DNA from: a virus
Strand: one strand, 5' to 3'
Virus record (IMG/VR): IMGVR_UViG_3300029986_000023
Span: 1-56,139 of that record
DNA length: 56,139 nucleotides
Numbering within the stretch: position 1 is the first letter of the stretch; each line of letters begins with the position of its first letter. Below the pieces are notes generated by a model that was not told where the DNA came from, did no database searches, and saw nothing but the letters and a program-made list of their open reading frames with translations. Made by a program: the position numbers and the translations under genes. Positions 194-50,357 of the stretch are shown piece by piece.

Positions 194-1932
194 TCAATAC
201 CTCCCGTGAAGCGAGACAAGCCAGCCTTCACGTTGATGGCGTAGGCGTTGGTGAGCGTCGCGTTCGTGCCTGCGATGGGTGCGCCACTGATAGTTACCGT
301 TGATGCAACGGTAAAAGTTGAAGCGGCGGCGGCGGCAAACGTCGGGGCATTAAATAAAACGTAATCTGCTTCTGCAACGGTACCTGTGGCCCATGTCATC
401 GTAGACGTGACCATGTTCAGCTGTGGAGCGTTGTTTGTGGCTGTGATCGACGAGAAATTCGGTGGAGTGATGGAAAGCGAAGCTGGGGCCGAACTTGTAT
501 TGGTAGGCGTGATGGTGACTGATCCTGTGGGTGTAAGAGCAAGGTGAGTTAGCCCACCACCCGCACTCAAAATCATTCCACCGCTATTCTTGGCCCATAA
601 GTTGAGCTGACCAGAATTGCTCCAAATTTGAGCATTGTTCGTCGTAGCCGTCGAAGCACCGCCTGTGAATCCAACAGCACCACCAGCGATGTTTAGAGCA
701 TAACCCTGTGTGATGGTCGCATTCGTTCCCGCGATCGGAGCACCAGAAATAGTTACGGTCGAAGCCACAGTAAAGGTAGAAGCAGCAGCAGCAGCAAAAG
801 TAGGGGCATTAATTTGCATGTAATCAGCCTCTGCAACCGTACCTGTCGCCCACGTTTGAGTAGACGTAACGAACAAGAATTCTGGAGCGTTCACTGTGGT
901 CGTTATACCCGTATTATTTGGCGGCGTCCATGAAGAAAAAGCAACTGCCCCAGATGAAGCTGCAGACCCGTTCCATACTTGTGAGCCAGTGGCTGCAACC
1001 GCTAAAGCAATTGTAGTGTTGTTCACAATAAACTGAAGTGTCGCATTATTCGGTACAACTCGAAAGACCCCTGCACGACCGAAGGTGCCATTATTTTCAG
1101 TAAAACCAACAATTAAACCATAACTACCTGCAACACCACTATTAACTGCAAAATAGGATTCATTGGATGTACCTGAACTCGACGTACTTATTTGTAAGAC
1201 TTGCGTTACATCATTAGTGATGATTGCTTCACCCGAACCATTAGCTCGATGAAAAAAAGCCGTACATAAACCCATACTAAGGTAGCCTGTTGACACGGAG
1301 GCGTTTACTTGAAGCTGACCATCTAAACGAGTTACACCGCCTTTAGACCATAAACAATACCCATTCGTAATTGTAGCATTCGTACCAGCAATTGGAGCAC
1401 CTGAAATAGTAAACGTAGCCGCAGAAGTAATTGTCGAAGCTCCCGCGAACGCCAAAGTGGGCGCATTGAATTGAGCGTAATCGTATTCAGCCAATGCACC
1501 TGTCGCGTAGGTTTGCGTTGAGGTTGCAAGTATAAATTGCGGCGCGTTTGTCGAGAGCGTGATTGCTGTATTGGATGCTGGCGTAAACAAGGCTGTGATG
1601 GGCACGCCTGATGAAGATGCTGTTTGCGCTACGGAAAGAGTAGCCGTTGGCGAAGCTGTGCCAATCCCTAAACGAAAGTTCGTATCGTCCCAAAAGAACT
1701 TGGCATTGTCTTGGGCAAGGACACCGGCTGGACCAACAAATAAAACAGAACCCTGTGTCGCACTAGTAATCGTGTCACCAATGGCTAGTGTTAAAGAACC
1801 AGTCACGGATAAAAGGAGCCGACCGCTTGAATCAACTTGAACTGGACACACCAAACCAGTCGTTGCATCAACCGCTAAAAGGGTTGGACGTGAGTTTGCA
1901 TCTCTTGGCGCGTTTCCATCGGGTGCTGCCAT
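31..1932 (-). CDS. Repeat-containing tail fibre (arm A)
   Basis: A 633-residue protein rich in Ala, Thr, Ser, Gly and Asn, typical of trimeric phage fibres that bind the host surface. Residues about 1-45 resemble the 92-residue protein encoded next to it (motif DANSRPTLLAVDATTG then a QVDSSGRLLLS strand), suggesting an attachment domain. The shaft carries three related units of roughly 85 residues, each with NAPQ/NAPE, ATGTVAEADY and ISGAPIAGTNATIT. The C-terminus (ITGGATVGYIPVYS) is the same as in the fibre at 38043-39380, which has only two units and a different N-terminus. Fibre identity rests on composition, repeats and position; receptor unknown. Confidence 0.75.
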   Translation of the reverse strand: MAAPDGNAPRDANSRPTLLAVDATTGLVCPVQVDSSGRLLLSVTGSLTLAIGDTITSATQGSVLFVGPAGVLAQDNAKFFWDDTNFRLGIGTASPTATLSVAQTASSSGVPITALFTPASNTAITLSTNAPQFILATSTQTYATGALAEYDYAQFNAPTLAFAGASTITSAATFTISGAPIAGTNATITNGYCLWSKGGVTRLDGQLQVNASVSTGYLSMGLCTAFFHRANGSGEAIITNDVTQVLQISTSSSGTSNESYFAVNSGVAGSYGLIVGFTENNGTFGRAGVFRVVPNNATLQFIVNNTTIALAVAATGSQVWNGSAASSGAVAFSSWTPPNNTGITTTVNAPEFLFVTSTQTWATGTVAEADYMQINAPTFAAAAASTFTVASTVTISGAPIAGTNATITQGYALNIAGGAVGFTGGASTATTNNAQIWSNSGQLNLWAKNSGGMILSAGGGLTHLALTPTGSVTITPTNTSSAPASLSITPPNFSSITATNNAPQLNMVTSTMTWATGTVAEADYVLFNAPTFAAAAASTFTVASTVTISGAPIAGTNATLTNAYAINVKAGLSRFTGGIDLSGIGSTTANITYTATTSTPATTWTSGATTSNPQGFIKVITGGATVGYIPVYS

Positions 1933-1937
1933 ATAGT

Positions 1938-2216
1938 TTAGCTAAATGTTCCTAAAAGATTTCCAGTCGAATTTTCAATCAAACATGCTTGCGTAGTACC
2001 GGAAGGATTTTGACCAAGCATTGATCTAACATCATTTGCATCGCTGGCTGCATTCGTTTGAGTTACCGTGATAGACCCAGAAGCCGCTACAATGCTCGCC
2101 AATAGATAGCCCGTTGCATGGTCGATTTGAAGTGGAACAACTGTACCGCTGGGATTCACTCCTTTAGCTGGTGGTACGCTGTTCGCATCGGGAGCGAAAT
2201 TATCTATTTGTGGCAT
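1938..2216 (-). CDS. Small fibre-adaptor-like protein
   Basis: A 92-residue protein just upstream of the fibre gene. It contains two copies of a motif of the form DAN(S/D)-x-GxNPSGT-x-I-x-TGxLL, at about residues 10-40 and 58-90. A third, more distant copy forms the N-terminus of the fibre itself. The shared module suggests that this protein and the fibre pack against the same partner, for example as an adaptor between tail and fibre; that is inference. It overlaps the end of the coiled-coil gene by 17 bases. Arm B has an unrelated protein here (39392-39736). Confidence 0.6.
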   Translation of the reverse strand: MPQIDNFAPDANSVPPAKGVNPSGTVVPLQIDHATGYLLASIVAASGSITVTQTNAASDANDVRSMLGQNPSGTTQACLIENSTGNLLGTFS

Positions 2217-2922
2217 ATTTGGTTTTCATTAGATCGAGGGCCGATTTTAACTTCTGACGATCATCAGCGATCTTACTTTCAAGGACTTTCAATTCCTTTC
2301 GTTTCTCATCCACCAGAAGTTCTTGAGCATTCAAATCATCTCGATCGTGATCTAAGGCTTGATATTTACGTTCTAACTTCTCCTCCTCATGGGCTACTGC
2401 ATCACATCGTACTTGTGTTTCTTCTCTTAACTTTTTAGCTTCCGCTTGAGCAAGCTTTACTTTTTGCTCTGCGCTTGTCTTGAGAGAAATAGCATTGGCT
2501 TTTTCTTTCGAGGCAACCGCCAATGATGTTTTGGCCTCACGTAAGGTTTGTTCTACTTGTTCGTGAAGTTGGCTTGTTTGAAACTCCTTAGATGCGATCT
2601 CTTGCATCCTAACCTCCAACCACTCGGCTTTCGCCTTTAGACTTGTCTCAAACTCTTGTAGAGGCTCAAGGGCTTTAGATTTACGTTTCTCAAGCTCCCA
2701 AACAGTCGTTTCGAGGGCATTCTTGCTTATAGTTAGAGGTTCTATGAAGGCTTTATAATCACGTTCATTCGTGAGTTTCTTTAGTTTCAATTCATCATTG
2801 AGGCGGTTCAGATCGTTCGTCTTTTCAGCAAGAGCCTTGGTAATTTTTACCGTCTCCAAAATTACAGCGGCCTTTTGCTCGTCGTAATCTTTTTGAACTT
2901 CTTTCTTGCTGAAAAGTTGCAT
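2200..2922 (-). CDS. Long coiled-coil protein
   Basis: A 240-residue protein that is almost entirely heptad-rich, charged alpha helix (many Glu, Lys, Leu and Ala) with no visible enzymatic motif. It starts MQLFSKKEVQKDYDEQK. The arm B counterpart at 39740-39934 starts MMKLFQKSDLRKAQQEQ but is only 64 residues, so the coil has been extended or shortened about fourfold. It lies between a connector-like gene and the fibre genes and is probably a structural or assembly factor. Function otherwise unknown. Confidence 0.65.
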   Translation of the reverse strand: MQLFSKKEVQKDYDEQKAAVILETVKITKALAEKTNDLNRLNDELKLKKLTNERDYKAFIEPLTISKNALETTVWELEKRKSKALEPLQEFETSLKAKAEWLEVRMQEIASKEFQTSQLHEQVEQTLREAKTSLAVASKEKANAISLKTSAEQKVKLAQAEAKKLREETQVRCDAVAHEEEKLERKYQALDHDRDDLNAQELLVDEKRKELKVLESKIADDRQKLKSALDLMKTKYATNR

Positions 2923-12131: not shown

Positions 12132-14019
<1,888 letters not shown>

Positions 14020-14497: not shown

Positions 14498-14530
14498 TTA
14501 TAAATGATCCTTGTGACAGCGGACGCGCAT
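14498..14530 (-). pseudogene. Relic of the zinc-ribbon gene 48690-49010
   Basis: Minus-strand frame of ten codons, MRVRCHKDHL then stop. Arm B begins MRVRCYVCHKDHSW at its zinc-ribbon gene. The relic has lost three codons (YVC, including a zinc-binding Cys) and is then cut by a stop. Flanking bases (CAGCGGACGCGCATAGGCTA) are shared with arm B at about 49000-49016. Confidence 0.75.
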
Positions 14531-14552
14531 AGGCTACTTAAAACGAAGACTT

Positions 14553-14597
14553 TCATATAATAGATTCAAGCTCCGTATCCACTACGTTTCGGTGGTT
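14553..14597 (-). pseudogene. Relic of the C-terminus of gene 49313-49552
   Basis: Read on the minus strand the frame gives HRNVVDTELESII then stop, compared with DRNGVDTELESII then stop at the end of the arm B membrane protein. The nucleotide match (TTCAAGCTCCGTATCCACT) extends on both sides. With the neighbouring relic it shows that arm A once had, or received, the arm B gene order here and lost what lay between. Confidence 0.7.
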
Positions 14598-14815
14598 TAA
14601 TTTCTCCTGTACAGATACCGTGTGAAGGTCAAGTAGATTCCTAGATTAGAAAGTACAAATAACCATTCACACAGTGTCTCTAAAGACGAATCAGGCTAGG
14701 AGGGGCAAGTCAGTTCGAGGACATTATCCATGTGACAATGTGATTGCTTGCCCGCGTGTTGCCTGTACGCTCTCTATCGTGAGTAGCTGGACGATACCAG
14801 TGATGGTATGTGGTT

Positions 14816-14844
14816 AGGTTAGCACAAAAAAGTTGAATTGTCAA
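14816..14844 (-). promoter_or_regulatory. Late-operon promoter, arm A
   Basis: Minus strand: TTGACA, 17-base spacer ending TGTGC, then TAACCT. The -35 box is a perfect consensus and directly follows the stop of the upstream gene. The extended TGC before the -10 recurs in other promoters of this window. Expected transcript start is near 14809. Confidence 0.65.
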
Positions 14845-15225
14845 TTATACAAATTGTATTTTCTTATTGAGCTTAATTGACTCTAGCATAAACTTCGCAT
14901 TTTTCGCTTCGGGGTTTTCGTCGCAGTAATCCTGCAAACCTTTCATAATTCCTTTGCGAGCCGCATCGCTTTTGTAAATCGTACTGTTAATTGTTTCTCC
15001 AGTAATCCCAGTAAATTCTTTAGCTGTTTCTACAGGCCGCTTGTCGGGGTAGCGTTCGTAATACTGCTGGATGGTTAAAATCTCAGCAATGGCTGAACCT
15101 TTTATTTTCTGGCCATCGAATGTTTCAAACCATTGATCGGCATGGATTATTTTTAGTGCCTCGTTTTCTTCGGAACCTATTAAAAGATGTGATCCTGTAA
15201 ACGTGATAATAGCATTGGTTTTCAT
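14845..15225 (-). CDS. Hypothetical protein next to the replication gene
   Basis: 126 residues, starting four bases after the DnaD-like gene, so cotranscribed with it. The middle (AEILTIQQYYERYPDKRPVETAKEFTGITGETINSTIYKSD) resembles a small helix-turn-helix or DNA-binding fold but I cannot place it in a family. Its stop overlaps the -35 box of the late promoter. Possible regulator or replication accessory; unproven. Confidence 0.55.
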   Translation of the reverse strand: MKTNAIITFTGSHLLIGSEENEALKIIHADQWFETFDGQKIKGSAIAEILTIQQYYERYPDKRPVETAKEFTGITGETINSTIYKSDAARKGIMKGLQDYCDENPEAKNAKFMLESIKLNKKIQFV

Positions 15226-15229
15226 ACAA

Positions 15230-15982
15230 TTAGTTTGTTTGAGGTTTTTTAGCTCGTACCGTCATGGATTCAATTGTTTGTTTGTGCGGATCGGTTTTTG
15301 TTTTGCTTTGATGAGCTATTAAGGCTGCGAGCTTGTCACGTAGCTGTACTGGAGTGGTTATGGTTGGCGCGTAAACGTCTCCAGACACGCTTACGGCATA
15401 GTCTATGGCTGCTATGACCTTTTGGATGCCGTAACGCTTTATAAGCGATTCTGCGGCCTTGCGTTGGGTTAGGTTTCCGAATTGTATTTGGGGGTTGAGG
15501 GTATCGTAAAATCTCTTAAAGACTTGATTGACTTCATCGCCGCCAGCGAGAGCTGGCAGTTCAGTATTCTTTACATTCTTATCATTCTTTACATTCTTAT
15601 TTATAGTGTGGCTTTCGTTTCCCCTCCGTTTCCCCTCTGTGTAGGTTTCCGTGTGGCTTTTGTAATTTTCTAGTGTTTGATATTTATCGTAGTTAAGCAA
15701 AGAAATGAACATTCCGCGTGTGGTTTTCCGTGTCCCCAACATACCCTGCTCCTTTGCCCATTTTATGAAACTCTCGATTTGATGCTTAGAAGCCTTGGTA
15801 TATAGCTGAATTTCGTTGTAGGTCAGCAGGACTTCCCCACGTTTGAACTGCTTTTCATCTTTGTAGTTAGCTAACTGGACGAGACAGAACCAAATCTTGA
15901 ACCACTTATCAGGCTTCCAAAAGAACACGTCACTCTCGAGAGTCTTCCTAGACCATATAGACGCGCCAGCAAGTTCGCGCAT
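15230..15982 (-). CDS. DnaD-like replication initiator or organiser
   Basis: 250 residues. The N-terminus has the layout of phage replisome organisers: an aromatic KWFKIWFCLVQLANYKD helix, RGEVLLTYNEIQLYTKASKH as a winged helix, and FISLLNYDKYQ. After a polar linker, a C-terminal domain (QRKAAESLIKRYGIQKVIAAI, then YAPTITTPVQLRDKLAALI) resembles the DnaD tail that binds DNA and helicase. It would start replication by loading the host helicase. It is the only replication gene I can see in either arm, and arm B lacks it. Confidence 0.65.
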   Translation of the reverse strand: MRELAGASIWSRKTLESDVFFWKPDKWFKIWFCLVQLANYKDEKQFKRGEVLLTYNEIQLYTKASKHQIESFIKWAKEQGMLGTRKTTRGMFISLLNYDKYQTLENYKSHTETYTEGKRRGNESHTINKNVKNDKNVKNTELPALAGGDEVNQVFKRFYDTLNPQIQFGNLTQRKAAESLIKRYGIQKVIAAIDYAVSVSGDVYAPTITTPVQLRDKLAALIAHQSKTKTDPHKQTIESMTVRAKKPQTN

Positions 15983-15983
15983 A

Positions 15984-16238
15984 TTATTTTTTGGCCTCTG
16001 GAATCCAGGCGATATCTCCCTTAATCATCACTCCTCCATGCTGTAAAAGATTCTTTTTTAGTTTCTTACCTACTTGGCTCGTGGAATCATGCCTACCAGG
16101 TATGTGGGGTGCGTCTGTTAAGTTCACTTTCTCCCCGACCAAGAGCAAGCGGATGAAAAAAGCTCGCCGTGAATCCATTGGTAGAAAGTCCAACTGCTTA
16201 CCTAAATCCTGCCAAACAAACTTCATGTTTTTAGACAT
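15984..16238 (-). CDS. Small hypothetical protein, first gene of its operon
   Basis: 84 residues, basic (KKLKKNLLQHGG). Its start codon is one base after the T tract of a terminator-like structure (16239-16308) and its stop is two bases from the next gene. The layout suggests attenuated expression of this gene together with the replication gene. Not recognised; possibly a small DNA-binding regulator because it contains a turn-and-helix-like middle. Confidence 0.55.
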   Translation of the reverse strand: MSKNMKFVWQDLGKQLDFLPMDSRRAFFIRLLLVGEKVNLTDAPHIPGRHDSTSQVGKKLKKNLLQHGGVMIKGDIAWIPEAKK

Positions 16239-16308
16239 AAAAAACCGGTAATGTTCCAGCCGTGAAGCCCCACACTAGGTGGCGCGGCCCGAACGCTAAC
16301 GGTTTTTT
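16239..16308 (-). terminator. Attenuator-like structure abutting the start of gene 15984-16238
   Basis: Minus-strand RNA: an arm of A6 then CCGTTA, an inner branched part (a GCCG/CGGC stem enclosing CCAC-loop-GTGG), then TACCGG followed by six T and the ATG of the gene. The outer arms pair over about ten bases with one mismatch. Because the A run pairs with the T run it could also stop plus-strand transcripts. Same hairpin-T-tract-start layout as at both portal genes. Confidence 0.65.
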
Positions 16309-16339
16309 AAAGTCATGGGCTTACATGACAAGCAAAAAC

Positions 16340-16368
16340 ACAATAGCACGTATTTCATCCATTTGCAA
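16340..16368 (-). promoter_or_regulatory. Promoter for the leftward replication genes
   Basis: Minus strand: TTGCAA, 17-base spacer ending CGTGC, TATTGT. Shares the TGC before the -10 with the late and early promoters. Expected start near 16333, ahead of the attenuator-like structure. The -35 box is weaker than in the others. Confidence 0.5.
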
Positions 16369-16377
16369 GGGGATGGT

Positions 16378-16406
16378 TTGACATACTATTTAACAGGTGG
16401 TAGCAT
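16378..16406 (+). promoter_or_regulatory. Early promoter 1, arm A
   Basis: Plus strand: TTGACA, 17-base spacer, TAGCAT. It lies 24 bases before the first rightward gene and back to back with the leftward promoter at 16340-16368, forming the divergent control region of arm A. Confidence 0.6.
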
Positions 16407-16430
16407 GGCCTTGGCTTAAAATGTCAACCT

Positions 16431-16598
16431 ATGAATCATATTGAAATTGCTAAAGCTCAAGCCCGCGAATGGGGTCGTATTGGAGGCATGCAACGCAAGC
16501 AATCAATGAAAAATGGTGGCTATTCAAAGATTGGAAAAGCAGGAGCAGAGAAGCGATGGGGTAAGAAACAGGTTGTGGATAAAGATGCCTTGACTTAA
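16431..16598 (+). CDS. Small basic protein, first early gene
   Basis: 55 residues, MNHIEIAKAQAREWGRIGG and then IGKAGAEKRWGKK. Basic and glycine-rich, with a loose likeness to KGG-type small stress peptides, but I would not assign it. It is the first gene after a consensus early promoter, so it may be the earliest product made, a typical place for host-takeover proteins (inference). Confidence 0.6.
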   Translation: MNHIEIAKAQAREWGRIGGMQRKQSMKNGGYSKIGKAGAEKRWGKKQVVDKDALT

Positions 16599-16618
16599 TA
16601 GCAGGGGGGTGCTAAAGT
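16590..16618 (+). promoter_or_regulatory. Early promoter 2, arm A
   Basis: TTGACT, 17-base spacer ending GGTGC, TAAAGT. The end of the spacer and the -10 (GTGCTAAAGT) are the same as in the arm B early promoter at 50358-50386. The -35 overlaps the last codons of the preceding gene. Drives the zinc-ribbon mini-genes and Bet. Confidence 0.7.
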
Positions 16619-16653
16619 ATATCCATGAGCCTAACAGCTCACTGACGGACAAC

Positions 16654-16699
16654 CCCTCGTACCTACGACCCGGTAATAACTGGCTCTTGCGTACGAGGG
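16654..16699 (+). promoter_or_regulatory. Leader hairpin before the early genes
   Basis: CCCTCGTAC at 16654-16662 pairs perfectly with GTACGAGGG at 16691-16699 across a 28-base loop. It lies in the leader of early promoter 2, 25 bases before the next gene. No T tract follows, so it is more likely a stability or translation-control element than a terminator. Confidence 0.5.
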
Positions 16700-16724
16700 T
16701 GAAGAACCACTAATAACCCACATT

Positions 16725-16847
16725 ATGATCTACCGATACTCTGACTGGAAAGCCCGTGAAGAAGGAAAAAAGATCACGTTTCATCTGCTCTGTGTCGTCG
16801 TAGGAATCATTGGTTACGTCATGCTCGCTCATTATCTAGGCATGTGA
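16725..16847 (+). CDS. Small single-pass membrane protein
   Basis: 40 residues: a charged N-terminus (MIYRYSDWKAREEGKK) and one hydrophobic segment (LLCVVVGIIGYVMLAHYLG). It overlaps the next gene in an ATGTGA arrangement, showing translational coupling. Function unknown. Confidence 0.55.
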   Translation: MIYRYSDWKAREEGKKITFHLLCVVVGIIGYVMLAHYLGM

Positions 16848-16996
16848 AAAAGAAACACACCGCCAAGCCATGTCCTCTGTGTGGAGGGAAACGGTACTGT
16901 AAGCCAGTGAGTATAAAGATGATCACCAATAGTCTGTTTGAACATGAGATGGTAACTACCTGGCGCGAAGTGTGTAAAAAGTGTTCACCAATATGA
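16844..16996 (+). CDS. Zinc-ribbon mini-protein
   Basis: 50 residues with a GTG start inside the end of the upstream gene. CPLCGG near residue 10 and CKKC near residue 45 form a CxxC...CxxC ribbon. Its stop overlaps the ATG of the next gene. Such tiny ribbons often bind nucleic acid or host polymerase, but no role can be fixed. Confidence 0.55.
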   Translation: MKKKHTAKPCPLCGGKRYCKPVSIKMITNSLFEHEMVTTWREVCKKCSPI

Positions 16997-17094
16997 AACC
17001 TATTATTTGTGAGTTCTGTGATGAACCGCTTGATTATTGCACCTGTGAATTGCCGGAAGACGAGCCGGACCGAGACCTTTACGACGATAAGTGA
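16993..17094 (+). CDS. Cysteine-rich acidic mini-protein
   Basis: 33 residues: CEFC and CTC motifs in the first half, then an acidic tail (ELPEDEPDRDLYDDK). Overlaps the upstream gene by four bases (ATGA). Likely binds one zinc ion. Not recognised. Confidence 0.5.
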   Translation: MKPIICEFCDEPLDYCTCELPEDEPDRDLYDDK

Positions 17095-17115
17095 TTTTAT
17101 TCATTAACAGATCCT

Positions 17116-17835
17116 ATGGAAAATACAAAAGCTATCGCAGTGAAGCAACCATGGACGAAAGAACAAATGGCTCTTATCACACGCACGGTCGCCAAAGGTG
17201 CAACGCAGGATGAACTTGGCTTGTTCTTCAACATCGCTAAGCGTTCAGGACTGGACGTCTTCACCAAACAAATTCATTTCGTGAAACGCAAGGTTTGGAA
17301 CAAGGACACACAGCAGAGTGAAGAAGTCGGAACGATTCAAACGGGCATTGACGGCTACCGTTCCATCGCTGAACGCTCTGGGACGCTCGCAGGCATTGAT
17401 GACGTTTTGTACGACACGGAAACCGATGAACACCCGAACAAGGCCAGCGTGACCGTGTATCGGTTGATTGGTGGCACTCGCGTTGCGTTCACCGCCTCTG
17501 CGCGCTGGACGGAATACGCCGCCATTCATCCAAAATCAAAAGAAGTCATGGGCCAATGGAAAAAGATGCCGTATCTCATGCTCGGCAAGTGCGCCGAGGC
17601 TCTGGCTCTTCGCAAGGCGTTCCCCAACGACCTTTCAGGCTTGTACACCCAAGAAGAAATGGATCAGGCACAGGAACCGATCGTGGACGCTACACCGCCG
17701 ACCGTTGCCGCGAAGAAAGTCAAGGCAGAAAAGCTGATGGAACGTCAACCCGTGACCGAAAGCATGACGGAGGAGACACCGATCACCGCCGAAGAGGTGG
17801 CCGAGCTTGATGCTGAAGCAGCCCAACAATCCTAG
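17116..17835 (+). CDS. bet: Bet/RecT-type single-strand annealing protein
   Basis: 239 residues. The family signature is clear: KEQMALITRTVAKGATQDEL near the start, FFNIAKRSGLDVFTKQIHFVKR, QTGIDGYRSIAERSG, then WKKMPYLMLGKCAEALALRK and FPNDLSGLYTQEEM. These proteins coat and anneal single-stranded DNA during phage recombination, fed by a partner exonuclease, here probably the next gene. The acidic C-terminus (EETPITAEEVAELDAEA) may bind partners. It supports concatemer formation and gene exchange. Only arm A has it. Confidence 0.9.
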   Translation: MENTKAIAVKQPWTKEQMALITRTVAKGATQDELGLFFNIAKRSGLDVFTKQIHFVKRKVWNKDTQQSEEVGTIQTGIDGYRSIAERSGTLAGIDDVLYDTETDEHPNKASVTVYRLIGGTRVAFTASARWTEYAAIHPKSKEVMGQWKKMPYLMLGKCAEALALRKAFPNDLSGLYTQEEMDQAQEPIVDATPPTVAAKKVKAEKLMERQPVTESMTEETPITAEEVAELDAEAAQQS

Positions 17836-17836
17836 T

Positions 17837-18595
17837 ATGCCAAAAGAAACAGACATCATCAGTCAGGCATATCACGGAGCCTACGAAATACGATTTTCTC
17901 CAGGCGCGCACCGCTATTGGGTTCGCAAGACGGGCGACGAGAAGTGGGAAAGCATTTCAGGCGTCACGACCATTCTGAACAAAGTCATCCCCAAGAACCT
18001 TGTTCAGTGGGCCGCAGATCAGGCCGTGGCTTCGCTTACGCCGCATTTGGGACAGGAGTTGACACAAACCATGCTGGAGGACGCCAGGAACGCTCACCGA
18101 GTCACTAAAGAGGAAGCGGGTGGCATTGGCAAGGCCGTCCACGCTTGGGTGGAACGATTCTGCCTCGGAAAAGGCAAACCCATCCCGCTGCCTGACGACG
18201 AAAAGGAATTGAACGGCGTCACGGGTTTTCTCAACTGGTGGAACAAGACGGGTGCGGAGATCATCGAAAGCGAGCGGTTCGTGTACCAACCAGAAAAGCA
18301 CTACATCGGAACGATGGATGCCTATGTCAAAATCAAAGACAAGTTCTACGTCGCGGATTGGAAAACGGGCAAAAACTTCTACGCCGACCATTTGCTTCAA
18401 GTGGCTGGGTACAGTTCAGCTTTTCGAATGGAAACAGGGAACCAAATCGACGGCATCATCGTCGCGAAGTTCAATAAAGAGGACGGCACGTTCGAAGAAA
18501 AGATCATCGAAAACATTACGCCGCTCGAACAAGCGTTCGACCGCGCGCTGAGGTTCTCGCGTGATTTGGATGATGCCGTAAAATTGGTTAAATGA
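17837..18595 (+). CDS. RecB/Cas4-type PD-(D/E)XK nuclease
   Basis: 252 residues from MPKETDIIS, one base after the Bet stop. The nuclease core is complete: GKAVHAWVE (His102), GTMDAY (Asp161), DWKTG (Asp174, Lys176) and QVAGY (Gln188, Tyr192). This is the arrangement of RecB-family exonucleases, which act as the end-resecting partner of Bet-type annealing proteins. The tight coupling to Bet supports that pairing. The lead-in SGVTTIL is also typical of phage members. Confidence 0.85.
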   Translation: MPKETDIISQAYHGAYEIRFSPGAHRYWVRKTGDEKWESISGVTTILNKVIPKNLVQWAADQAVASLTPHLGQELTQTMLEDARNAHRVTKEEAGGIGKAVHAWVERFCLGKGKPIPLPDDEKELNGVTGFLNWWNKTGAEIIESERFVYQPEKHYIGTMDAYVKIKDKFYVADWKTGKNFYADHLLQVAGYSSAFRMETGNQIDGIIVAKFNKEDGTFEEKIIENITPLEQAFDRALRFSRDLDDAVKLVK

Positions 18596-18596
18596 T

Positions 18597-19355
18597 ATGC
18601 CCAAACAACTTCCTTCCAACCGCGTGAAAGAAATAACAATGGAAAAAGGTTGCACGACTCAAGAAGCCATCCTCGCCTACCTCGACGAACGCGAAACTGA
18701 AGAGAAGCGTGTCGAAGATGCTACGATGAAATACAACATTGAACTGGCTAAGATGCACAAGTTCTACAACTCAAATAAAGCAACCCCTGTTACGCCATCT
18801 AAGGACGAAGGTAACAAGAATATTTGCCTGCCTGAAACCAAATGTAATTTGTGCGGCATGATGGGAAATCCACCGTGGTATCACCAATGTCCTGGTCTGT
18901 TCAACCAATCACACTGGGGGACTGACCATCCCCAACTTGTCGGTCTTGCTAAAGAGATTGAAAAGATGACGGAAGAAGCAAAGCCCTGTCGCCCAAGTAG
19001 AGTAGCGGCACCGTCAGAAGTCAATGAAAAAGCCAGCCTTGTTGAAAAACTCTTTGCCCGAAAGTGTGAGGCAAAATATAGAGATTTGGTGTCTAATTCT
19101 TCAACTATGACTTGTGGAAAATCACTTCCTTGTCCCGACCATCCCCCTCAACCAAAACCACGCTGGAGACCGAGCCTTGGAGAAACAAGTTATTCCATAG
19201 ATTGGGATGGCGAAATTGTGAAAGACGGCGCATGGGAAGATTTGGAATATGAAAACGCGCGTTGGGCTTTTGGCAATTGCTTCCCGTCCCGTGAGAAAGC
19301 AGAGGCTGCCGCGCAAGCTATCAAGGAGCTGCTAATGAAAATACAAGGAGAATAA
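18597..19355 (+). CDS. Modular early protein with zinc motif and GNCFP domain
   Basis: 252 residues. Three parts: an N-terminal helix region, a Cys-rich middle (CNLCGMMG, HQCPGLF), and a C-terminal domain with KPRWRPS and FGNCFPSREKAEAAAQAIKELL. The last domain recurs as an almost free-standing protein in arm B (50571-50807), so these genes swap domains. Start follows TGAT, one base after the nuclease stop. Function unknown. Confidence 0.6.
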   Translation: MPKQLPSNRVKEITMEKGCTTQEAILAYLDERETEEKRVEDATMKYNIELAKMHKFYNSNKATPVTPSKDEGNKNICLPETKCNLCGMMGNPPWYHQCPGLFNQSHWGTDHPQLVGLAKEIEKMTEEAKPCRPSRVAAPSEVNEKASLVEKLFARKCEAKYRDLVSNSSTMTCGKSLPCPDHPPQPKPRWRPSLGETSYSIDWDGEIVKDGAWEDLEYENARWAFGNCFPSREKAEAAAQAIKELLMKIQGE

Positions 19356-19359
19356 TAAT

Positions 19360-19584
19360 ATGGGACACTGGGAAAGAGAAATTGGATACAGATGTTCTGA
19401 TGATTGTAAACAGTCTGGCTGTCCAGGACATACAATGAAAGTGGAAATCTTTACCGTAACCGATTCTTTAAAGGTTACTCCAGATATTAAAGACGGAACC
19501 GATTTCTTTTACTTGGATACGAATCGTTTTGAAACTCTTAAAAAAGTTCTAAAAGAATGGGATTATAGTGGTTTCAATTTCTAA
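19360..19584 (+). CDS. Small conserved phage protein with Cys-His cluster
   Basis: 74 residues. MGHWEREIGYRCSDDCKQSG followed by CPGH gives four potential zinc ligands; the rest is a small beta fold (EIFTVTDSLKVTP). Short proteins with a CSxDCxxSGCPGH cluster are, from memory, common in phages of diverse hosts, but no function is known to me. The ATG is preceded by AATAAT. Confidence 0.6.
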   Translation: MGHWEREIGYRCSDDCKQSGCPGHTMKVEIFTVTDSLKVTPDIKDGTDFFYLDTNRFETLKKVLKEWDYSGFNF

Positions 19585-19622
19585 CCCCTTTGGCCGCCAT
19601 CCTAACGAATCCTGAATATGAC
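19581..19622 (+). repeat. 42-base block shared with 52610-52651
   Basis: A block containing CTTTGGCCGCCATCCTAACG and ending at the first codons (ATGAC) of the downstream gene is identical in both early regions, although the genes on either side differ. It covers the intergenic gap and start codon, so it may carry a shared translation or recombination signal. Confidence 0.85.
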
Positions 19623-19869
19623 TATCGAGACCGCTTGGAACGAAATAGCAATAGGAATGAAGCAAGATGAGCCTCAAGCAAACTTTGATTTGTTCCAATC
19701 CATCCTCCAACGCTTCGCCCTGGAGTTCGTGGAGGCGAGTGTCGGTGTGAAGCAGAAATGTACGCATCAAGACCCACAGTTTTGCAAGGACGTGAAGTGT
19801 CCGAAGATTCAGTGGAACGCTTGTCGTGAGCAAACCTTGGAGGCGGCACGTAAGATACTTGGCTTATGA
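19618..19869 (+). CDS. Modular early protein (FALEFV...EAARKILG family), arm A
   Basis: 83 residues. ILQRFALEFVEAS in the middle and TLEAARKILGL at the end are shared with the arm B protein at 52647-52901, while the segment between differs. The variable part here has several Cys (CTHQDPQFCKDVKC). The gene end overlaps the next start in ATGA. Function unknown; the variable core between constant ends is notable. Confidence 0.6.
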   Translation: MTIETAWNEIAIGMKQDEPQANFDLFQSILQRFALEFVEASVGVKQKCTHQDPQFCKDVKCPKIQWNACREQTLEAARKILGL

Positions 19870-19961
19870 ACTGCCCACAATGCTCCAAATACATTAGCGA
19901 CTGGCGATGGTGGCCGTTCTATGTGGGGTTCGTGCTTGGCCTTTTACTGGGAACGAAATAA
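19866..19961 (+). CDS. Tiny membrane protein with CxxC
   Basis: 31 residues: CPQC near the start, then a hydrophobic segment (WWPFYVGFVLGLLLG). Overlaps the previous gene by four bases. Arm B has a 29-residue membrane peptide in exactly the same place (52898-52987), which supports both being real. Confidence 0.5.
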   Translation: MNCPQCSKYISDWRWWPFYVGFVLGLLLGTK

Positions 19962-19963
19962 AT

Positions 19964-20173
19964 ATGAGCCAAATCATTCATGGAGATTGCTTGGACTTTA
20001 TTCCAACTCTCTGTGATGAGATTGATAGGCTCAACGCCCTCCTCTCCCAATATCGTGCCTTCAAAGAGGCGGTGGAGAAAGGTTTTATGAATCAGAAGGA
20101 AGGCAACGAATCGTTTGAAGACTTCAAGAAGCGTCGCGACGCCGCCCTGCTCTTAGCCCCTAAAGACGAATAG
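19964..20173 (+). CDS. Small early protein with RRDAALLLAPKDE tail
   Basis: 69 residues from MSQIIHGDCLDF, preceded by AAAT. A helical middle (EIDRLNALLSQYRAFKEAVEKG) and the C-terminal tail DAALLLAPKDE. The same tail closes the much longer arm B protein at 52989-53684 (DAALALAPKNE), and a version lies in the next gene. It seems to be a mobile 3-prime cassette. No known function. Confidence 0.55.
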   Translation: MSQIIHGDCLDFIPTLCDEIDRLNALLSQYRAFKEAVEKGFMNQKEGNESFEDFKKRRDAALLLAPKDE

Positions 20174-20175
20174 GT

Positions 20176-20355
20176 ATGCTCAAATTCATTGACGAGCTTG
20201 CTGACGTATCCGATGCTGATATTGAGGTGATTGAGAAAATGTTACTACGGACGAAGATTGAAAACCACATGGTTTGGATTCATGGAGTGACAAAGAAATC
20301 TCCCCTCGCTCTTAGTCCTAAAGACGAAATGGTATGCACAAACCAAAAACCGTAA
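20176..20355 (+). CDS. Small early protein, extended past a lost stop
   Basis: 59 residues. It reaches LALSPKDE, where related genes stop (GACGAATAG), but here the sequence reads GACGAAATGG, so translation runs on for eight codons into the next gene. This looks like a recent loss of the stop codon. Overlaps the following gene by 22 bases. Function unknown. Confidence 0.5.
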   Translation: MLKFIDELADVSDADIEVIEKMLLRTKIENHMVWIHGVTKKSPLALSPKDEMVCTNQKP

Positions 20356-20474
20356 CGTATTACTGCTACTGCCAAGAGTGCATGGACGAATGCCGCTTCA
20401 CCTTGCAGGGTGCTGAACAAACGCCGCCAGCTCGACCTACCAAATCCGCCAGCCCGACCGTACAAGGTCGCTAA
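20334..20474 (+). CDS. Cysteine-rich mini-protein
   Basis: 46 residues starting MHKPKTVTYYCYCQECMDEC, with four Cys within 11 residues, then a Pro/Ala/Ser tail (TPPARPTKSASPTVQG). The start has GGT before ATG. A 59-base piece of this gene survives as a relic in arm B (51341-51399). Probably binds zinc. Confidence 0.5.
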   Translation: MHKPKTVTYYCYCQECMDECRFTLQGAEQTPPARPTKSASPTVQGR

Positions 20475-20485
20475 CCATCCCTGGT

Positions 20486-20833
20486 ATGAACACCTACTGC
20501 CAAAAGCACGCTAAACAGAAAATCTATCTCACCTGTTTGTGTGCTGTTGAGCATGGGTGTCCAGTTTGTAAACATGAAATACCTGATATGCCACCTATTA
20601 ACGAATTGATCGAGAAGTTGAAGGGATTGGAAACGAGGGCTACGAAAGGGCCGTGGAATGGATTTGGAGACATCCTTGAGTTCGTGATGGCCCTCCGCAA
20701 CGCCTTTCACCAGCTAGTAAGTGAGATTGAACGGTTGCAGGCGATGTGTTTCAAACAGGCGGTTGTTCTTGGCGAAATGCAAACCCAACTAAAGCAAGCC
20801 GAAGCTCTAAGATGTCCACATACGATTGGATGA
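20486..20833 (+). CDS. Modular early protein: HAK-CLC, ATKGPW and ERLQAMC modules
   Basis: 115 residues. Three modules: an N-terminal Cys/His part (CQKHAKQKIYLTCLC), a helix with LKGLETRATKGPWNG, and a C-terminal coil (LVSEIERLQAMCFKQAVVLG). Module 1 recurs in arm B at 54246-54647, module 2 at 52989 and 53687, and module 3 at 53687-53998 with 146 identical bases. The protein is an assembly of exchangeable parts; roles unknown. Confidence 0.6.
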   Translation: MNTYCQKHAKQKIYLTCLCAVEHGCPVCKHEIPDMPPINELIEKLKGLETRATKGPWNGFGDILEFVMALRNAFHQLVSEIERLQAMCFKQAVVLGEMQTQLKQAEALRCPHTIG

Positions 20834-20834
20834 T

Positions 20835-20894
20835 ATGCCTTGCAACCATGATGAAGCTGAACGTGATCGAGCATTGAAACTTAGACCTCTATGA
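20835..20894 (+). pseudogene. Truncated copy of zinc-ribbon gene 54000-54230
   Basis: Reads MPCNHDEAERDRALKLRPL then stop. The first seven codons equal those of the 76-residue arm B zinc-ribbon protein, within the 146-base identical block that ends here. After that point sequence and frame are unrelated. The stop overlaps the next start (CTATGA). Could be a functional 19-residue peptide, but more likely a breakpoint relic. Confidence 0.5.
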
Positions 20895-21145
20895 AATCAA
20901 TCATTATCTCACTCATTACTTGGATATTGTTTTTACTTGCTGCCCGTCGTTCTTATGTGATCTGGTTATATCTAGGCAATTTGTTGGATGAAATAAGCTA
21001 CTACGCCAATAAAGACATTAACAGTAATAAAGACTGGCGATGGCGTTATAAAGAATTTAACAAAGTATCTCAAGTTCAAATGCTTATCAAATTTTGGAAA
21101 CCGTTAAAATCGTTTTGGAAAGACCATTCCTTCCATACAGACTAA
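20891..21145 (+). CDS. Small membrane-anchored protein
   Basis: 84 residues. One N-terminal hydrophobic segment (IIISLITWILFLLAA) preceded by MKS, then a basic, aromatic soluble part (DWRWRYKEFNK, FWKPLKSFWKD). Overlaps the relic upstream by four bases. No counterpart in arm B at this place. Function unknown. Confidence 0.5.
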   Translation: MKSIIISLITWILFLLAARRSYVIWLYLGNLLDEISYYANKDINSNKDWRWRYKEFNKVSQVQMLIKFWKPLKSFWKDHSFHTD

Positions 21146-21190
21146 TATGCTCTGTCTCACCTACTAATCTAATAAAATATCAATAAACAT

Positions 21191-21553
21191 ATGAACTCAA
21201 TCATTATCGACGGAGTAACCTACGTCCCAGAAGGAACAATTAAAGGCCAAACAGCTGTGAACACTGACGGTTTGAAATACTGCATTGTTCGTACTTACAG
21301 TGCTGGTGTATTCGCTGGTTATCTCAAAAGTCTCGTGGGAAAAGAAGGTATCGTTTTGAATGCTCGACGTTTGTGGTACTGGGCAGGAGCCGCTTCACTC
21401 TCTCAACTTGCTATGGAAGGTGTGAGTAAACCAAAAGAATGTAAGTTTCCTTGCGAAGTTAACGAGGTGCAATTATCAGAAGTAATTGAAGTAATCCCAT
21501 GTACCGAAGAAGCTCAAAAGTCCATCGCTAAGGTGGCGAACTGGAGTGAGTAA
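21191..21553 (+). CDS. DUF6948-like conserved phage protein
   Basis: 120 residues. The block YCIVRTYSAGVFAGYLKSLV, then LNARRLWYWAGAASLSQLA, then CKFPC and VIEVIPCTEEA, matches a family of unknown function seen in many phages and prophages (from memory, DUF6948). It is followed one base after its stop by the Gly-X repeat gene. Such pairs occur, to my recollection, in other phages, so the two may act together. Preceded by an A/T-rich leader with no Shine-Dalgarno sequence. Role unknown. Confidence 0.75.
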   Translation: MNSIIIDGVTYVPEGTIKGQTAVNTDGLKYCIVRTYSAGVFAGYLKSLVGKEGIVLNARRLWYWAGAASLSQLAMEGVSKPKECKFPCEVNEVQLSEVIEVIPCTEEAQKSIAKVANWSE

Positions 21554-21554
21554 T

Positions 21555-21821
21555 ATGACCACTACAATCGCGTCAGGCAACGGCTACGGCGACGGCTACG
21601 GAAACGGCAACGGCTACGGCTACGGAAACGGCAACGGCTACGGAAACGGCAACGGCTACGGAAACGGCGACGGCGACGGCTACGGCGACGGCTACGGAAA
21701 CGGCTACGGCGACGGCAACGGCTACGGCTACGGAAACGGCAACGGCTACGGAAACGGCAACGGCGACGGCAACGGCAACGGCTACGGAAACGGAAACGGC
21801 AACGGCAACGGCAACGGCTAG
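21555..21821 (+). CDS. Gly-(Asn/Tyr/Asp) repeat protein
   Basis: 88 residues from MTTTIASGNG. From residue 8 on, every second residue is Gly and the other is Asn, Tyr or Asp. At DNA level the unit is six bases, GGC or GGA followed by AAC, TAC or GAC; the non-Gly codon changes only at its first base, and GGA occurs only before AAC. No fold or motif besides the repeat. It may form a flexible or phase-separating chain, or a polar zipper. The perfect reading frame through about 40 units argues for selection. It lies directly after the DUF6948-like gene. Confidence 0.7.
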   Translation: MTTTIASGNGYGDGYGNGNGYGYGNGNGYGNGNGYGNGDGDGYGDGYGNGYGDGNGYGYGNGNGYGNGNGDGNGNGYGNGNGNGNGNG

Positions 21822-21827
21822 GCTTGT

Positions 21828-21866
21828 ATGTCTTTTTGTCTCACCTGTGGCTCTACAACACTATGA
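21828..21866 (+). CDS. Possible 12-residue CxxC peptide
   Basis: MSFCLTCGSTTL then stop; the stop overlaps the ATG of the next gene (CTATGA), so it could couple translation of that gene. Preceded by TTGT. Present identically in the second copy. Too short to be sure. Confidence 0.25.
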   Translation: MSFCLTCGSTTL

Positions 21867-22099
21867 AAAAGGCATTAGTTGAACTACGAATTCAAATGGT
21901 TATAGATGCGCCGGATTATTCAAATGATCCTGATGAAGAAAACTTAAGTGAATTCTATTTTGAACAACACAAGTGCGTAGAGGATTTGATAGATGAATTG
22001 AAGAAGACGCAAAAGGAAGGAGTCTGTAGGTGTAACGATGCCTCTATCCATTTTCTGGGTTTTGAAGGCGGAGAAAACAAACTGGAACAACCTGAATAA
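21863..22099 (+). CDS. Small acidic early protein
   Basis: 78 residues from MKKALVELRIQM; a TTG start further upstream is less likely. Acidic middle (PDYSNDPDEENLSEFYFEQ), helical CVEDLIDELKKTQKEG, then CRC. Last gene before the 400-base gap; no known family. Identical in the second copy. Confidence 0.55.
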   Translation: MKKALVELRIQMVIDAPDYSNDPDEENLSEFYFEQHKCVEDLIDELKKTQKEGVCRCNDASIHFLGFEGGENKLEQPE

Positions 22100-22500
22100 A
22101 GTAGTATAATGGATTAGCCAATGGTAGCGCGAGCTGGCGAGGTTCCGTCTTCGTCGGTTCCGTCGAGTACATAGTTTACGCGTTGAATGGTTCGATTCCG
22201 CCCTGGTGGGCAACGGGTTCGGCTGTGTACTCAACAGAACGAAAGCTCAAAAACTTGTTCATTTGATTGAGTTCATGAGGCGGCCGAGGAGTCGCTAAAA
22301 GGTGCATAATGAGACACTGGGGAGGCTCAACCAAGGCCGCAAGGCTGTATTACCAAGTGTGTCTGCCCGTCAAAGCGGGCCGTGAACTCTATTGAATGAA
22401 TATGGCTTAGTAATACGCAAGCCTGCGAGTATAAAGATCGTAGAGGATAAGATTCACGACATAATCGCTAAGCCCCACTGGGCCGAATCATTTGAGTGAT
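22100..22500 (+). other. Gene-free 400-base stretch, possible structured RNA (copy 1)
   Basis: Begins with a perfect TATAAT at 22105-22110; the -35 region (CTGGAA) is weak. Downstream, GAGTACATAG (22165-22174) pairs with CTGTGTACTC (22223-22232) over ten bases, enclosing tRNA-like pieces (GGTTCGATTCC). Upstream is AATGGTAGCGCGAG, similar to a tRNA D arm, but no acceptor stem can be formed, so I do not call a tRNA. A GCCCG-loop-CGGGC hairpin lies near 22370. It ends at the NinB-like gene. Could be a noncoding RNA or an origin-like region. Confidence 0.4.
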
Positions 22501-22854
22501 ATGGAAGAGAAACCAAAAATAGATAACAAGAGAACGCTATCACAGAATCGAGCTTTGCATTTATACTTTACTCTCGTTGCCACGTCTTTGAATGCCGCTG
22601 GAATAGAAATCAAGGCGTCACTCCCCGACATGGAGATTCCATGGTCGCCAGAGACGGTCAAAATTCTTCTATGGAAGACGGTTCAAAGAATACTGGTTCA
22701 AAAGGAACACACGGCGGACTTGTCCACAAAGGAAATTGATTTGGTGTATGACGTGGTGAATCGTCATCTGGCATCGCTCGGCATCCATGAGGCATTTCCA
22801 AGCATTGAGACTTTGATGCTGATAAACCCCAGCAAAAGTGATACAATATCCTAA
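22501..22854 (+). CDS. NinB-like conserved phage protein
   Basis: 117 residues from MEEKPKIDNKR, preceded by GAGTGAT. The block TLSQNRALHLYFTLVATSLN, then IPWSPETVKILLWKTVQ and DLSTKEIDLVYDVVNRHLA, is a pattern I know from many phage early regions, often beside NinG-type genes; some are labelled NinB- or recombination-related. Overlaps the NinG-type gene in TAATGA. The function is taken from neighbourhood, so only moderately sure. Confidence 0.65.
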   Translation: MEEKPKIDNKRTLSQNRALHLYFTLVATSLNAAGIEIKASLPDMEIPWSPETVKILLWKTVQRILVQKEHTADLSTKEIDLVYDVVNRHLASLGIHEAFPSIETLMLINPSKSDTIS

Positions 22855-23264
22855 TGAACTACTTCAAAGTAAAATCCAAAAAGAAACCATCAATAAGTCG
22901 TTTGAAAAAACAACTTGAGATTCTAGTAAAACAATTCGTGAAAATAAGGGACAAAAACATTTGTCAGCGGTGCGGCAAGTACGTTACAGGATCAGATTGT
23001 CACGGGTCACACGTCATCCCTGTATCTGCTGGGAATCAATTCCGTTTCGATCCTTTGAACATCAAGACACTTTGTTATCACTGCCACATAAATTGGTGGC
23101 ACAAGAATCCTATTGAAGCTGGTGACTGGTTCCAAGCCAAATTTCCTGAACGTTATGATTACCTATTTGGTAAACCAAGAATGTCAGTAAAATACACGGT
23201 TCAATGGTATCAAGACATGATAGAGAAATATAAAGCACTTTTGAAAACTTTGTCGAAGGAGTAA
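22854..23264 (+). CDS. NinG/Rap-type HNH recombination protein
   Basis: 136 residues. Basic N-terminus (KKKPSISRLKKQLE), VKIRDKNICQRCGK, SDCHGSHVIPVSAGN, then LCYHCHINWWH: the paired CxxC motifs and central His of NinG, a protein linked to Holliday-junction or branched-DNA processing in lambda-like phages. The full HNH-like zinc core is present. Last gene of the rightward early operon before a 475-base gap. Confidence 0.75.
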   Translation: MNYFKVKSKKKPSISRLKKQLEILVKQFVKIRDKNICQRCGKYVTGSDCHGSHVIPVSAGNQFRFDPLNIKTLCYHCHINWWHKNPIEAGDWFQAKFPERYDYLFGKPRMSVKYTVQWYQDMIEKYKALLKTLSKE

Positions 23265-37808: not shown

Positions 37809-38033
37809 TTAAACCGTGATTGCATTAGCGAGGCAGAACGCTTCCATCGTTTCACAATCAGCGAGAGCTTGTGTGTTGAGCGCAACGGCGGCGGTTACGA
37901 TAGGTGTTTGTGCCTGTGTATTTGCTTGGATGGCATCAACTTGTACTTTTGAAAATGTCTGAACAGATCCATCGTCGGCAGTGACCTGAAGCGCGTTGTT
38001 TCCGTCGGCATCCTGAACGAGTGCGAGGGTCAT
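37809..38033 (-). CDS. Small protein downstream of the fibre
   Basis: 74 residues, MTLALVQDADGNNALQVTAD at the start, then a helical Ala/Gln-rich part (IQANTQAQTPIVTAAVALN). Starts nine bases after the fibre gene stop. The first seven codons are duplicated at positions 1-21. Function unknown; possibly linked to the fibre because it lies directly beside it in both copies. Confidence 0.55.
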   Translation of the reverse strand: MTLALVQDADGNNALQVTADDGSVQTFSKVQVDAIQANTQAQTPIVTAAVALNTQALADCETMEAFCLANAITV

Positions 38034-38042
38034 AGAAGGATT

Positions 38043-39380
38043 TTAGGAGTAAACAGGGATATATCCGACGGTCGCTCCACCCGTGATCACCTTGATAAAT
38101 CCTTGTGGGTTAGAGGTCGTTGCTCCAGTCGTCCAGGTCGTCGCTGGGGTCGAGGTGGTCGCGGTGTAGGTGATATTGGCTGTCGTACTTCCGATACCCG
38201 AAAGATCTATACCGCCATCAGCGCGTATTGAACCAGATTTGATCCACAGAGCATATTTGTTCGTCAGCGTTGCATTGCTCCCAGCTATTGGCGCGCCCGT
38301 AATTGTCACTGTACTCGCTGCTGTGAACGTAGAGGCAGCAGCAGCGGCAAACGTCGGGGCATTAATTTGCATGTAATCAGCCTCTGCAACCGTACCTGTC
38401 GCCCACGTTTGAGTAGACGTAACGAACAAGAATTCTGGAGCGTTCACTGTGGTCGTTATACCCGTATTATTTGGCGGAGTCCATGAAGAAAAAGCAACTG
38501 CCCCAGATGAAGTTGCAGACCCGTTCCATGCTTGTGAGCCAGAGGCTGCAACCGCTAAAGCAATTGTAGTGTTGTTCACAATAAACTGAAGTGTCGCATT
38601 ATTCGGTATAACTCGAAAGACCCCTGCACGACCGAAGGTGCCATTATTTTCAGTAAAACCAACAACTAAACCATAACTACCTGCAACACCACTATTAACT
38701 GCAAAATAGGATTCATTGGATGTACCTGAACTCGACGTACTCATTTGTAAGACTTGCGTTCCATCATTAGTGATGATTGCTTCACCCGCTCCATTAGCTC
38801 GATGAACAAAAGCCGTACATAAACCCATACTAAGGTAGCCTGTTGACACGGAGGCGTTTACTTGAAGCTGACCATCTAAACGAGTTACACCGCCTTTAGA
38901 CCATAAACAATACCCATTCGTAATTGTAGCATTCGTACCAGCAATTGGAGCACCTGAAATAGTAAACGTAGCCGCAGAAGTAATTGTCGAAGCTCCCGCG
39001 AACGCCAAAGTGGGCGCATTGAATTGAGCGTAATCGTATTCAGCCAATGCACCTGTCGCGTAGGTTTGCGTTGAGGTTGCAAGTATAAATTGCGGCGCGT
39101 TTGTCGAGAGCGTGATTGCTGTATTGGATGCTGGCGTAAACAAGGCTGTGATGGGCACGCCTGATGAAGATGCTGTTTGCGCTACGGAAAGAGTAGCCGT
39201 TGGCGAAGCTGTGCCAATCCCTAAACGAAAGTTCGTATTATCCCAAAAGAACTTGGCATTGTCTTGTCCCAGATTTCCTGAACCGTCTACGAACAAAACT
39301 GATCCACTGGTTCCACTCCCAACGGCATCCCCAATAGCCATGACTCCGCTATTGCCGCCGCTTCCAAAAAAAGCTGACAT
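38043..39380 (-). CDS. Repeat-containing tail fibre (arm B)
   Basis: 445 residues. From GQDNAKFFWDNTNFRLGIGT onward it is nearly the same as the arm A fibre at 31-1932, but it has two rather than three of the 85-residue units and a shorter N-terminus (MSAFFGSGGNSGVMAIGDAV). The attachment part thus differs while the receptor-binding part is shared. The last unit differs (ALWIKSGSIRADGG against AINVKAGLSRFTGG). Recombination has clearly taken place inside this gene. Confidence 0.75.
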   Translation of the reverse strand: MSAFFGSGGNSGVMAIGDAVGSGTSGSVLFVDGSGNLGQDNAKFFWDNTNFRLGIGTASPTATLSVAQTASSSGVPITALFTPASNTAITLSTNAPQFILATSTQTYATGALAEYDYAQFNAPTLAFAGASTITSAATFTISGAPIAGTNATITNGYCLWSKGGVTRLDGQLQVNASVSTGYLSMGLCTAFVHRANGAGEAIITNDGTQVLQMSTSSSGTSNESYFAVNSGVAGSYGLVVGFTENNGTFGRAGVFRVIPNNATLQFIVNNTTIALAVAASGSQAWNGSATSSGAVAFSSWTPPNNTGITTTVNAPEFLFVTSTQTWATGTVAEADYMQINAPTFAAAAASTFTAASTVTITGAPIAGSNATLTNKYALWIKSGSIRADGGIDLSGIGSTTANITYTATTSTPATTWTTGATTSNPQGFIKVITGGATVGYIPVYS

Positions 39381-49013: not shown

Positions 49014-49307
49014 CTATTTGGTTTTCCATTCACCGTTCCAGGTTTCGTCGAAGCCGCCAATCTTTTCTGCCGAACCGATCAATTCTCTCAACGAGGCCTG
49101 GATCACTTCTTCGAGGCGTTCCACATCGTCTTGCCGCATCGTCATCGCCCAGGTGTAGATCTTCGGGATCACTGAACCAGGTTCAAACTCTGTCGGCTGC
49201 TCTTTCAACTTGCCAGCGATTTTATACACAACTGCCTCGGAATCTGGTAATGGAATTGGGCCTTCGAGGTAAATGCCTGGAACGTACATTTCGCCAAAGT
49301 GGGCCAT
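49014..49307 (-). CDS. Hypothetical protein (arm B late operon)
   Basis: 97 residues. MAHFGEMYVPGIYLEGPIPL, then helical DDVERLEEVIQASLRELIG. Cotranscribed with its neighbours (gaps of three and five bases). Lost from arm A, where relics of the flanking genes are joined. Not recognised. Confidence 0.5.
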   Translation of the reverse strand: MAHFGEMYVPGIYLEGPIPLPDSEAVVYKIAGKLKEQPTEFEPGSVIPKIYTWAMTMRQDDVERLEEVIQASLRELIGSAEKIGGFDETWNGEWKTK

Positions 49308-49312
49308 AGAGA

Positions 49313-49552
49313 TCAGATGATTGATTCAAGCTCCGTATCCACTCCGTTTCGGTCGTTCTCTTCGAGCAGCTCGTCGCGCGCCAGGGTTTCGTCGTCCGTG
49401 TCGAGGATAGCCGCCTTGATGCGTGGTACTGCCTGCTGGACGCGGTAGATGATCTTACGAGAGGCTGGCAGCTTGGTTTCGATGACCAAGATAGCCAAAG
49501 AACATCCAAAGGCTATGAGAAGACCCACAATTAGGCCGAGGATGAACATCAT
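49313..49552 (-). CDS. Single-pass membrane protein (arm B)
   Basis: 79 residues. N-terminal helix (FILGLIVGLLIAFGCSLAIL), then a helical, acidic tail ending DRNGVDTELESII. A remnant of that end is in the arm A late leader. Overlaps the upstream gene by four bases. Possibly a lysis or membrane-linked accessory protein. Confidence 0.55.
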   Translation of the reverse strand: MMFILGLIVGLLIAFGCSLAILVIETKLPASRKIIYRVQQAVPRIKAAILDTDDETLARDELLEENDRNGVDTELESII

Positions 49553-49704
49553 GTTGACTCTACTTTATCAGATTTTAGGTGCTTTGTCAATCTTTCCTTG
49601 TGGATTCTTTCTAAGACGCCAAACGGAGGCTCTAGAGATTCTACCCATTGATCTACGAGCTTCTGTTTGTTTTTTTCATCACGGACGAGATCCAGCAAGT
49701 TCAT
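49549..49704 (-). CDS. Small helical protein
   Basis: 51 residues from MNLLDLVRDEKNKQ; longer forms start at 49737 or 49767 but overlap the upstream gene more. Charged, with QKLVDQWVESLEPPFGVLER. Start choice and function uncertain. Confidence 0.4.
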   Translation of the reverse strand: MNLLDLVRDEKNKQKLVDQWVESLEPPFGVLERIHKERLTKHLKSDKVEST

Positions 49705-50265: not shown

Positions 50266-50269
50266 ATGT

Positions 50270-50296: not shown

Positions 50297-50297
50297 C

Positions 50298-50345: not shown

Positions 50346-50357
50346 GTGGATAACTAA

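Follow-up and report, generated by a model that had tools for sequence, protein, structure and literature searches.

A 56-kb virus record, probably an assembly chimera of two co-occurring tailed phages, with early-region blocks that point to recent exchange

The early regions of lambdoid phages contain short identical stretches near gene ends that separate non-homologous genes. That mosaic junctions originate at such boundary sequences is an established proposal (PMC3029335), and general recombination has been proposed as the route by which the lambdoid ones are exchanged (summarised in PMC3029335). On short homologies of the kind described below, Rad52-like phage annealing enzymes outperform RecA, and RecT-family and Red-beta proteins have been found to recombine short and diverged sequences well (PMC3945230). 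Mosaic phages also leave their mark on metagenomic assemblies, in which the common stretches of co-occurring phages branch the assembly graph and give rise to fragmented or chimeric contigs (PMC10563150). The DNA analysed here touches on all three of these subjects.

The window, by which we mean the whole analysed stretch of 56,139 nucleotides, is the complete IMG/VR record IMGVR_UViG_3300029986_000023, which is classed as linear. It holds two terminases (38% identical), two portals (32%) and two major head proteins (28%), as well as two tail fibre genes that are 91% identical over 377 aa. The original prediction had described exchangeable cassettes in two early regions of this DNA. Beyond the short blocks on which it was based, the window contains larger repeats, namely 21141-22636, which recurs as 54643-56139, the pair 770-1713 and 38323-39266, and the pair 1-201 and 38013-38213 (98% identical). 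These larger repeats, together with the doubled terminase, portal and capsid genes, indicate that each arm comes from a phage of its own, A or B. The layout is as follows:

1 to 21140: phage A part, with tail fibre (R2), head genes, terminase, GroEL/ES, RecT and exonuclease, and early cassettes
770 to 1713, minus strand: R2, tail fibre gene of phage A, 98% identical to 38323-39266, with a longest identical run of 431 b
21141 to 23257, plus strand: R1, largely common to A and B, with a gene at 21191-21553, the NG/YG/DG repeat gene, a NinB-like gene and NinG
23258 to 54642: phage B part, with tail module, tail fibre (R2), head genes, terminase and early cassettes
38323 to 39266, minus strand: R2, tail fibre gene of phage B, 98% identical to 770-1713
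54643 to 56139, plus strand: second copy of R1, B-like for its first ~55 b and A-type from there on

Both phages are also found on their own. Phage A alone is represented by a record of 34,418 b (3300030508_000050, G005), which is 100% identical to the window over 21,323 b (window 1-21323) and then continues into a different tail module, followed by R1. This record is nearly closed, its two ends lying in one gene region at ~135 b from each other. Phage B alone is represented by a record of 35,775 b (3300029953_000096, G007) that covers the phage B part (23258-54642) at 99.85% and is likewise nearly closed, its ends being ~80 b apart. The window itself follows A up to R1, runs through a whole round of B and then enters R1 again. 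Contigs of both A and B occur in samples 3300029911, 3300030688 and 3300037278. Among 14 more distant related records, ten contain a terminase match, one per record, and none contains more than one. We conclude that two distinct tailed phages that occur together, A (~34.5 kb) and B (~35.9 kb), were very probably fused into the window during assembly by way of their common stretches. The early-region blocks are real and were very probably left by recent, homology-bounded exchange between the two.

The joins can be placed within R1. Large parts of this region are 98–100% identical between phages that are otherwise ~30% identical, and the last 1,497 bases of the window repeat its first copy at 99.9%. 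Difference painting locates the A-to-B join at 22825-23152, the sequence being A-like at 22824 and B-like from 23153. A and B are identical over 328 bases around this change and over 388 around the return from B to A at the contig end, so that both joins lie in A/B-identical sequence longer than the graph word. The last difference between A and B before the common stretch is at position 22509; past this difference, the window, G004 and G007 end after exactly 127 b and G008 after exactly 99 b. De Bruijn assemblers of short reads commonly use words of 127 and 99 bases. The graph branches at these contig ends, which implies that both forms were present and thus that the window's sample probably contained both phages. 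A further A contig, G006, passes through the 147-bp early-region block described below into 26 bases of B, and hence that block can itself cause misjoins. In G008, which comes from another sample, the B early region also continues into A-type R1, so that some B genomes may truly carry it there, a point against the misjoin. Because the end of the window follows A-type R1, the window lacks the recombination cluster of B.

R1 also contains an 18-base tandem-repeat gene (21546-21821 and 55049-55324) encoding NG/YG/DG units. The array differs in length and make-up between the phages, with 91 aa in A and 83 aa in B (G007).

At R2, four head-tail pairings were found: A with A (G005), B with B (G007), A tail with B head (G002) and B tail with A head (G001). 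The switch from A tail to B head in G002 lies between 1254 and 1686, and in G001 the change from B to A falls between 1056 and 1113, in a run of just 56 identical bases. The joins could therefore be read as true recombinants, produced by a natural swap of whole tail modules through homologous crossover in R1 and R2, with the window partly such a product (A early region plus B tail). The presence of all four pairings, the near identity of much of R1 between such diverged phages and the crossover in G001 speak for this reading, as 56 identical bases are shorter than a 127- or 99-base word and a simple repeat jump does not explain the switch. However, the other crossovers fall in 328–431 identical bases, where short-read assembly can misjoin, and the contig ends k bases into the common stretch show a branched graph at that point. 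Moreover, haplotypes at 98% identity can be mixed by bubble collapse, which could also have made the switch in G001. On balance, we regard true recombinants as unlikely, although this is the most serious alternative to a chimera. Somewhat more doubtful still is a wider proposal, in which A and B form a natural pair with diverged genomes whose near-identical R1 and R2 flank the tail module and are used to swap whole tail modules, all four pairings coexisting. If the head-tail pairings were real, two fixed stretches of homology would be the route by which host-range modules move within a natural community.

We next turn to the early regions, for which arm A (14500-21140) was compared with arm B (49300-54642). 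The main features are:

17073 to 17124, plus strand: 52-bp leader block of phage A, whose end reaches the first codons of recT; an identical block lies before the 292-aa gene of B (G007)
19142 to 19340, plus strand: GNCFP C-terminal module, common to 50609-50795, with a 26-bp exact block and a 53-bp block at 87%
19576 to 19622, plus strand: 42/47-bp block of phage A, reaching from a gene's stop codon to the start of the following gene, 97.9% identical to 52605-52651
20388 to 20446, plus strand: 59-bp block of phage A, 95% identical to 51341-51399, in a small, apparently coding reading frame
20690 to 20856, plus strand: 147-bp block of phage A, 167 b at 96.4%, covering a gene 3' end, the stop and the bases after it
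51341 to 51399, plus strand: 59-bp block of phage B, a start-less relic of an A-like reading frame, after the YopX gene
52605 to 52651, plus strand: 42/47-bp block of phage B, pairing with 19576-19622 and also in G007
53855 to 54021, plus strand: 147-bp block of phage B, pairing with 20690-20856 and in G007 too

The original prediction held that identical blocks of 42 and 146 bases and a 59-base relic lie inside otherwise different genes, and all of them are present, the longest comprising 147 rather than 146 exact bases (20710-20856 and 53875-54021, the core of the 167-bp block). The 42-bp core is exact at 19581-19622 and 52610-52651, inside the 47-bp match of 97.9%, and the longest exact run of the 59-bp block measures 44 bases. 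The protein modules HAK-CLC, ATKGPW, ERLQAMC, DAALALAPKDE and GNCFP were recovered as well; the GNCFP-module proteins of A and B are 54% identical over 69 aa. As predicted, similarity is not uniformly low but confined to sharply bounded blocks, with background similarity reached within a few bases of their edges. The two early regions share seven exact same-strand matches of at least 16 bases (21, 26, 17, 42, 29, 44 and 147 bases), whereas Markov-resampled sequences gave a mean of 0.02 such matches and a longest match of 16. No exact 16-mers are common to the head modules of A and B, or to their tail modules. In the 147-bp block, 40 consecutive codons are identical at every position, including the third, while the rest of those genes differs. 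A gene start or stop lies inside six of ten blocks, compared with a random mean of 2.0 (p = 0.006, for one genome pair with hand-picked blocks and predicted genes). Each phage truly possesses the blocks, since they turn up separately in G005 and G007. The 146-, 42- and 52-bp patterns, searched in other virus contigs, had matches in A and B contigs only, which gives no sign of a wider family of blocks.

The idea of exchangeable early cassettes is accordingly retained in part. Sharp, recently exchanged blocks exist, with identical third positions and two blocks out of order, but they do not reflect shuffling within one genome, as the two arms are two phages. The domain graph of the modules in related phages proved empty: two module-bearing proteins had no match in the 14 more distant related records (some of them fragments) or in INPHARED, and a search of INPHARED with the early-region DNA returned nothing. 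A further 45-bp block (89%) pairs 14553-14597 with 49313-49357; in A it precedes the small terminase gene, and in B it lies inside a gene 3' end.

The blocks might instead represent no transfers at all, but parts of anciently related early regions, such as regulatory or binding sites, that were conserved by selection. Between A and B most blocks keep their order, several include a start or a stop codon, and some of the neighbouring genes are homologous (45–58% aa identity), all of which would fit such an origin. We nevertheless consider it improbable. Selection of this kind is difficult to reconcile with 40 consecutive codons identical at third positions in phages whose homologous structural genes lack any 16-base match. 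Furthermore, B retains the 59-bp block as a relic with no start codon, and both this block and the 52-bp leader are out of order between the two phages. Exchange between A and B during co-infection is the most likely origin of the blocks. Finally, the window as one real genome, either a tandem prophage pair or a fused phage with two head modules, would account for a single contiguous 56 kb record with R1 and R2 directly repeated, but it is extremely improbable and was rejected: each parent is seen by itself as a nearly closed circle, no host gene, tRNA or recognised integrase was seen between A and B, the contig ends at exactly k bases and none of the 14 related records has more than one terminase.

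Both phages carry genes that could have taken part in such exchange:

17116 to 17835, plus strand: RecT-type annealing protein of phage A (PF03837, 2.9e-26; phrog_2449, 5.1e-41)
17807 to 18595, plus strand: phage exonuclease of phage A (phrog_298, 7.3e-26)
L028 (G007:C1) 1449 to 2324, minus strand: 292-aa gene of phage B (phrog_10048), carrying a topoisomerase-type zinc ribbon (PF01396) at its C-terminus

In A, the predicted RecT-family and nuclease genes are adjacent, an arrangement that resembles a RecT/exonuclease pair. R1 contains NinG (PF05766, 2.8e-11) and a NinB/Orf-like gene with a weak match (phrog_72, 0.0014). In B, the next large gene after the 292-aa gene resembles an exonuclease family (phrog_10477, 2.2e-13) and weakly matches Gam-like proteins, and a relative of the 292-aa gene adjoins exonuclease and single-strand binding protein genes in Acinetobacter phage Silvergun. 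B, as seen in G007, probably possesses a recombinational gene cluster of its own that differs from that of A, and the 292-aa protein is a candidate for a new annealing protein; its single-sequence fold reached a pLDDT of 37 and was unusable. It would seem that the same 52-bp leader is followed by different recombination genes in A and B. The block pattern is explained by recent exchange, bounded by short homologies, between phages infecting the same cell. These exchanges could have been made by phage single-strand annealing involving RecT and the exonuclease in A, the other cluster in B and NinB/NinG in R1, which is a plausible mechanism, and the identical blocks may in turn serve as landing sites for further exchange.

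Phage A also encodes GroEL-like and GroES-like chaperonins (12132-14019) close to the terminase genes (PF00118, 5.8e-61; PF00166, 6.1e-13). Relatives of the GroEL protein, at 41–46% identity, occur in MAGs of Bacteroidetes, Deltaproteobacteria, Hydrogenedentes and others, and no host can be assigned by this route. The terminase matches in INPHARED are about 22–26% identical among the matches listed, and those name no host. Promoter and terminator scans of the early region gave counts not clearly above those of shuffled sequences. Among the 79 predicted genes of the whole window, a Shine-Dalgarno-like sequence precedes the start codon in six, and a T stands at position -1 before 65% of the start codons.

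These results correct the public record, in that a 56-kb virus entry rests on a probable misjoin, as does any statement that a single phage has two heads or a pair of early regions. They also provide a clean co-occurring pair in which recent exchange can be measured, with near-identical blocks set against cores that are ~30% identical.

The overall picture is reminiscent of lambdoid early regions, where, as in A and B, non-homologous genes are set apart by short stretches of identity close to gene ends (PMC3029335). However, the present case concerns one uncultured phage pair, its blocks also occur inside genes, and the collections searched show no conservation of them in a larger group of phages. 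With respect to the Rad52-like annealing proteins Red-beta, RecT and Erf (PMC3945230), phage A is predicted to encode a RecT-family protein and an exonuclease, and R1 putative NinB/Orf- and NinG/Rap-like proteins, whereas the candidate recombination gene of B falls, by sequence comparison, into the unnamed family phrog_10048. As in the chimeric contigs of mosaic phages (PMC10563150), common stretches of co-occurring phages branched the assembly graph, but here the contigs end exactly 127 and 99 bases into the common stretch, and clean parental contigs exist. The blocks themselves are ordinary, known phage mosaicism, found in new phages.
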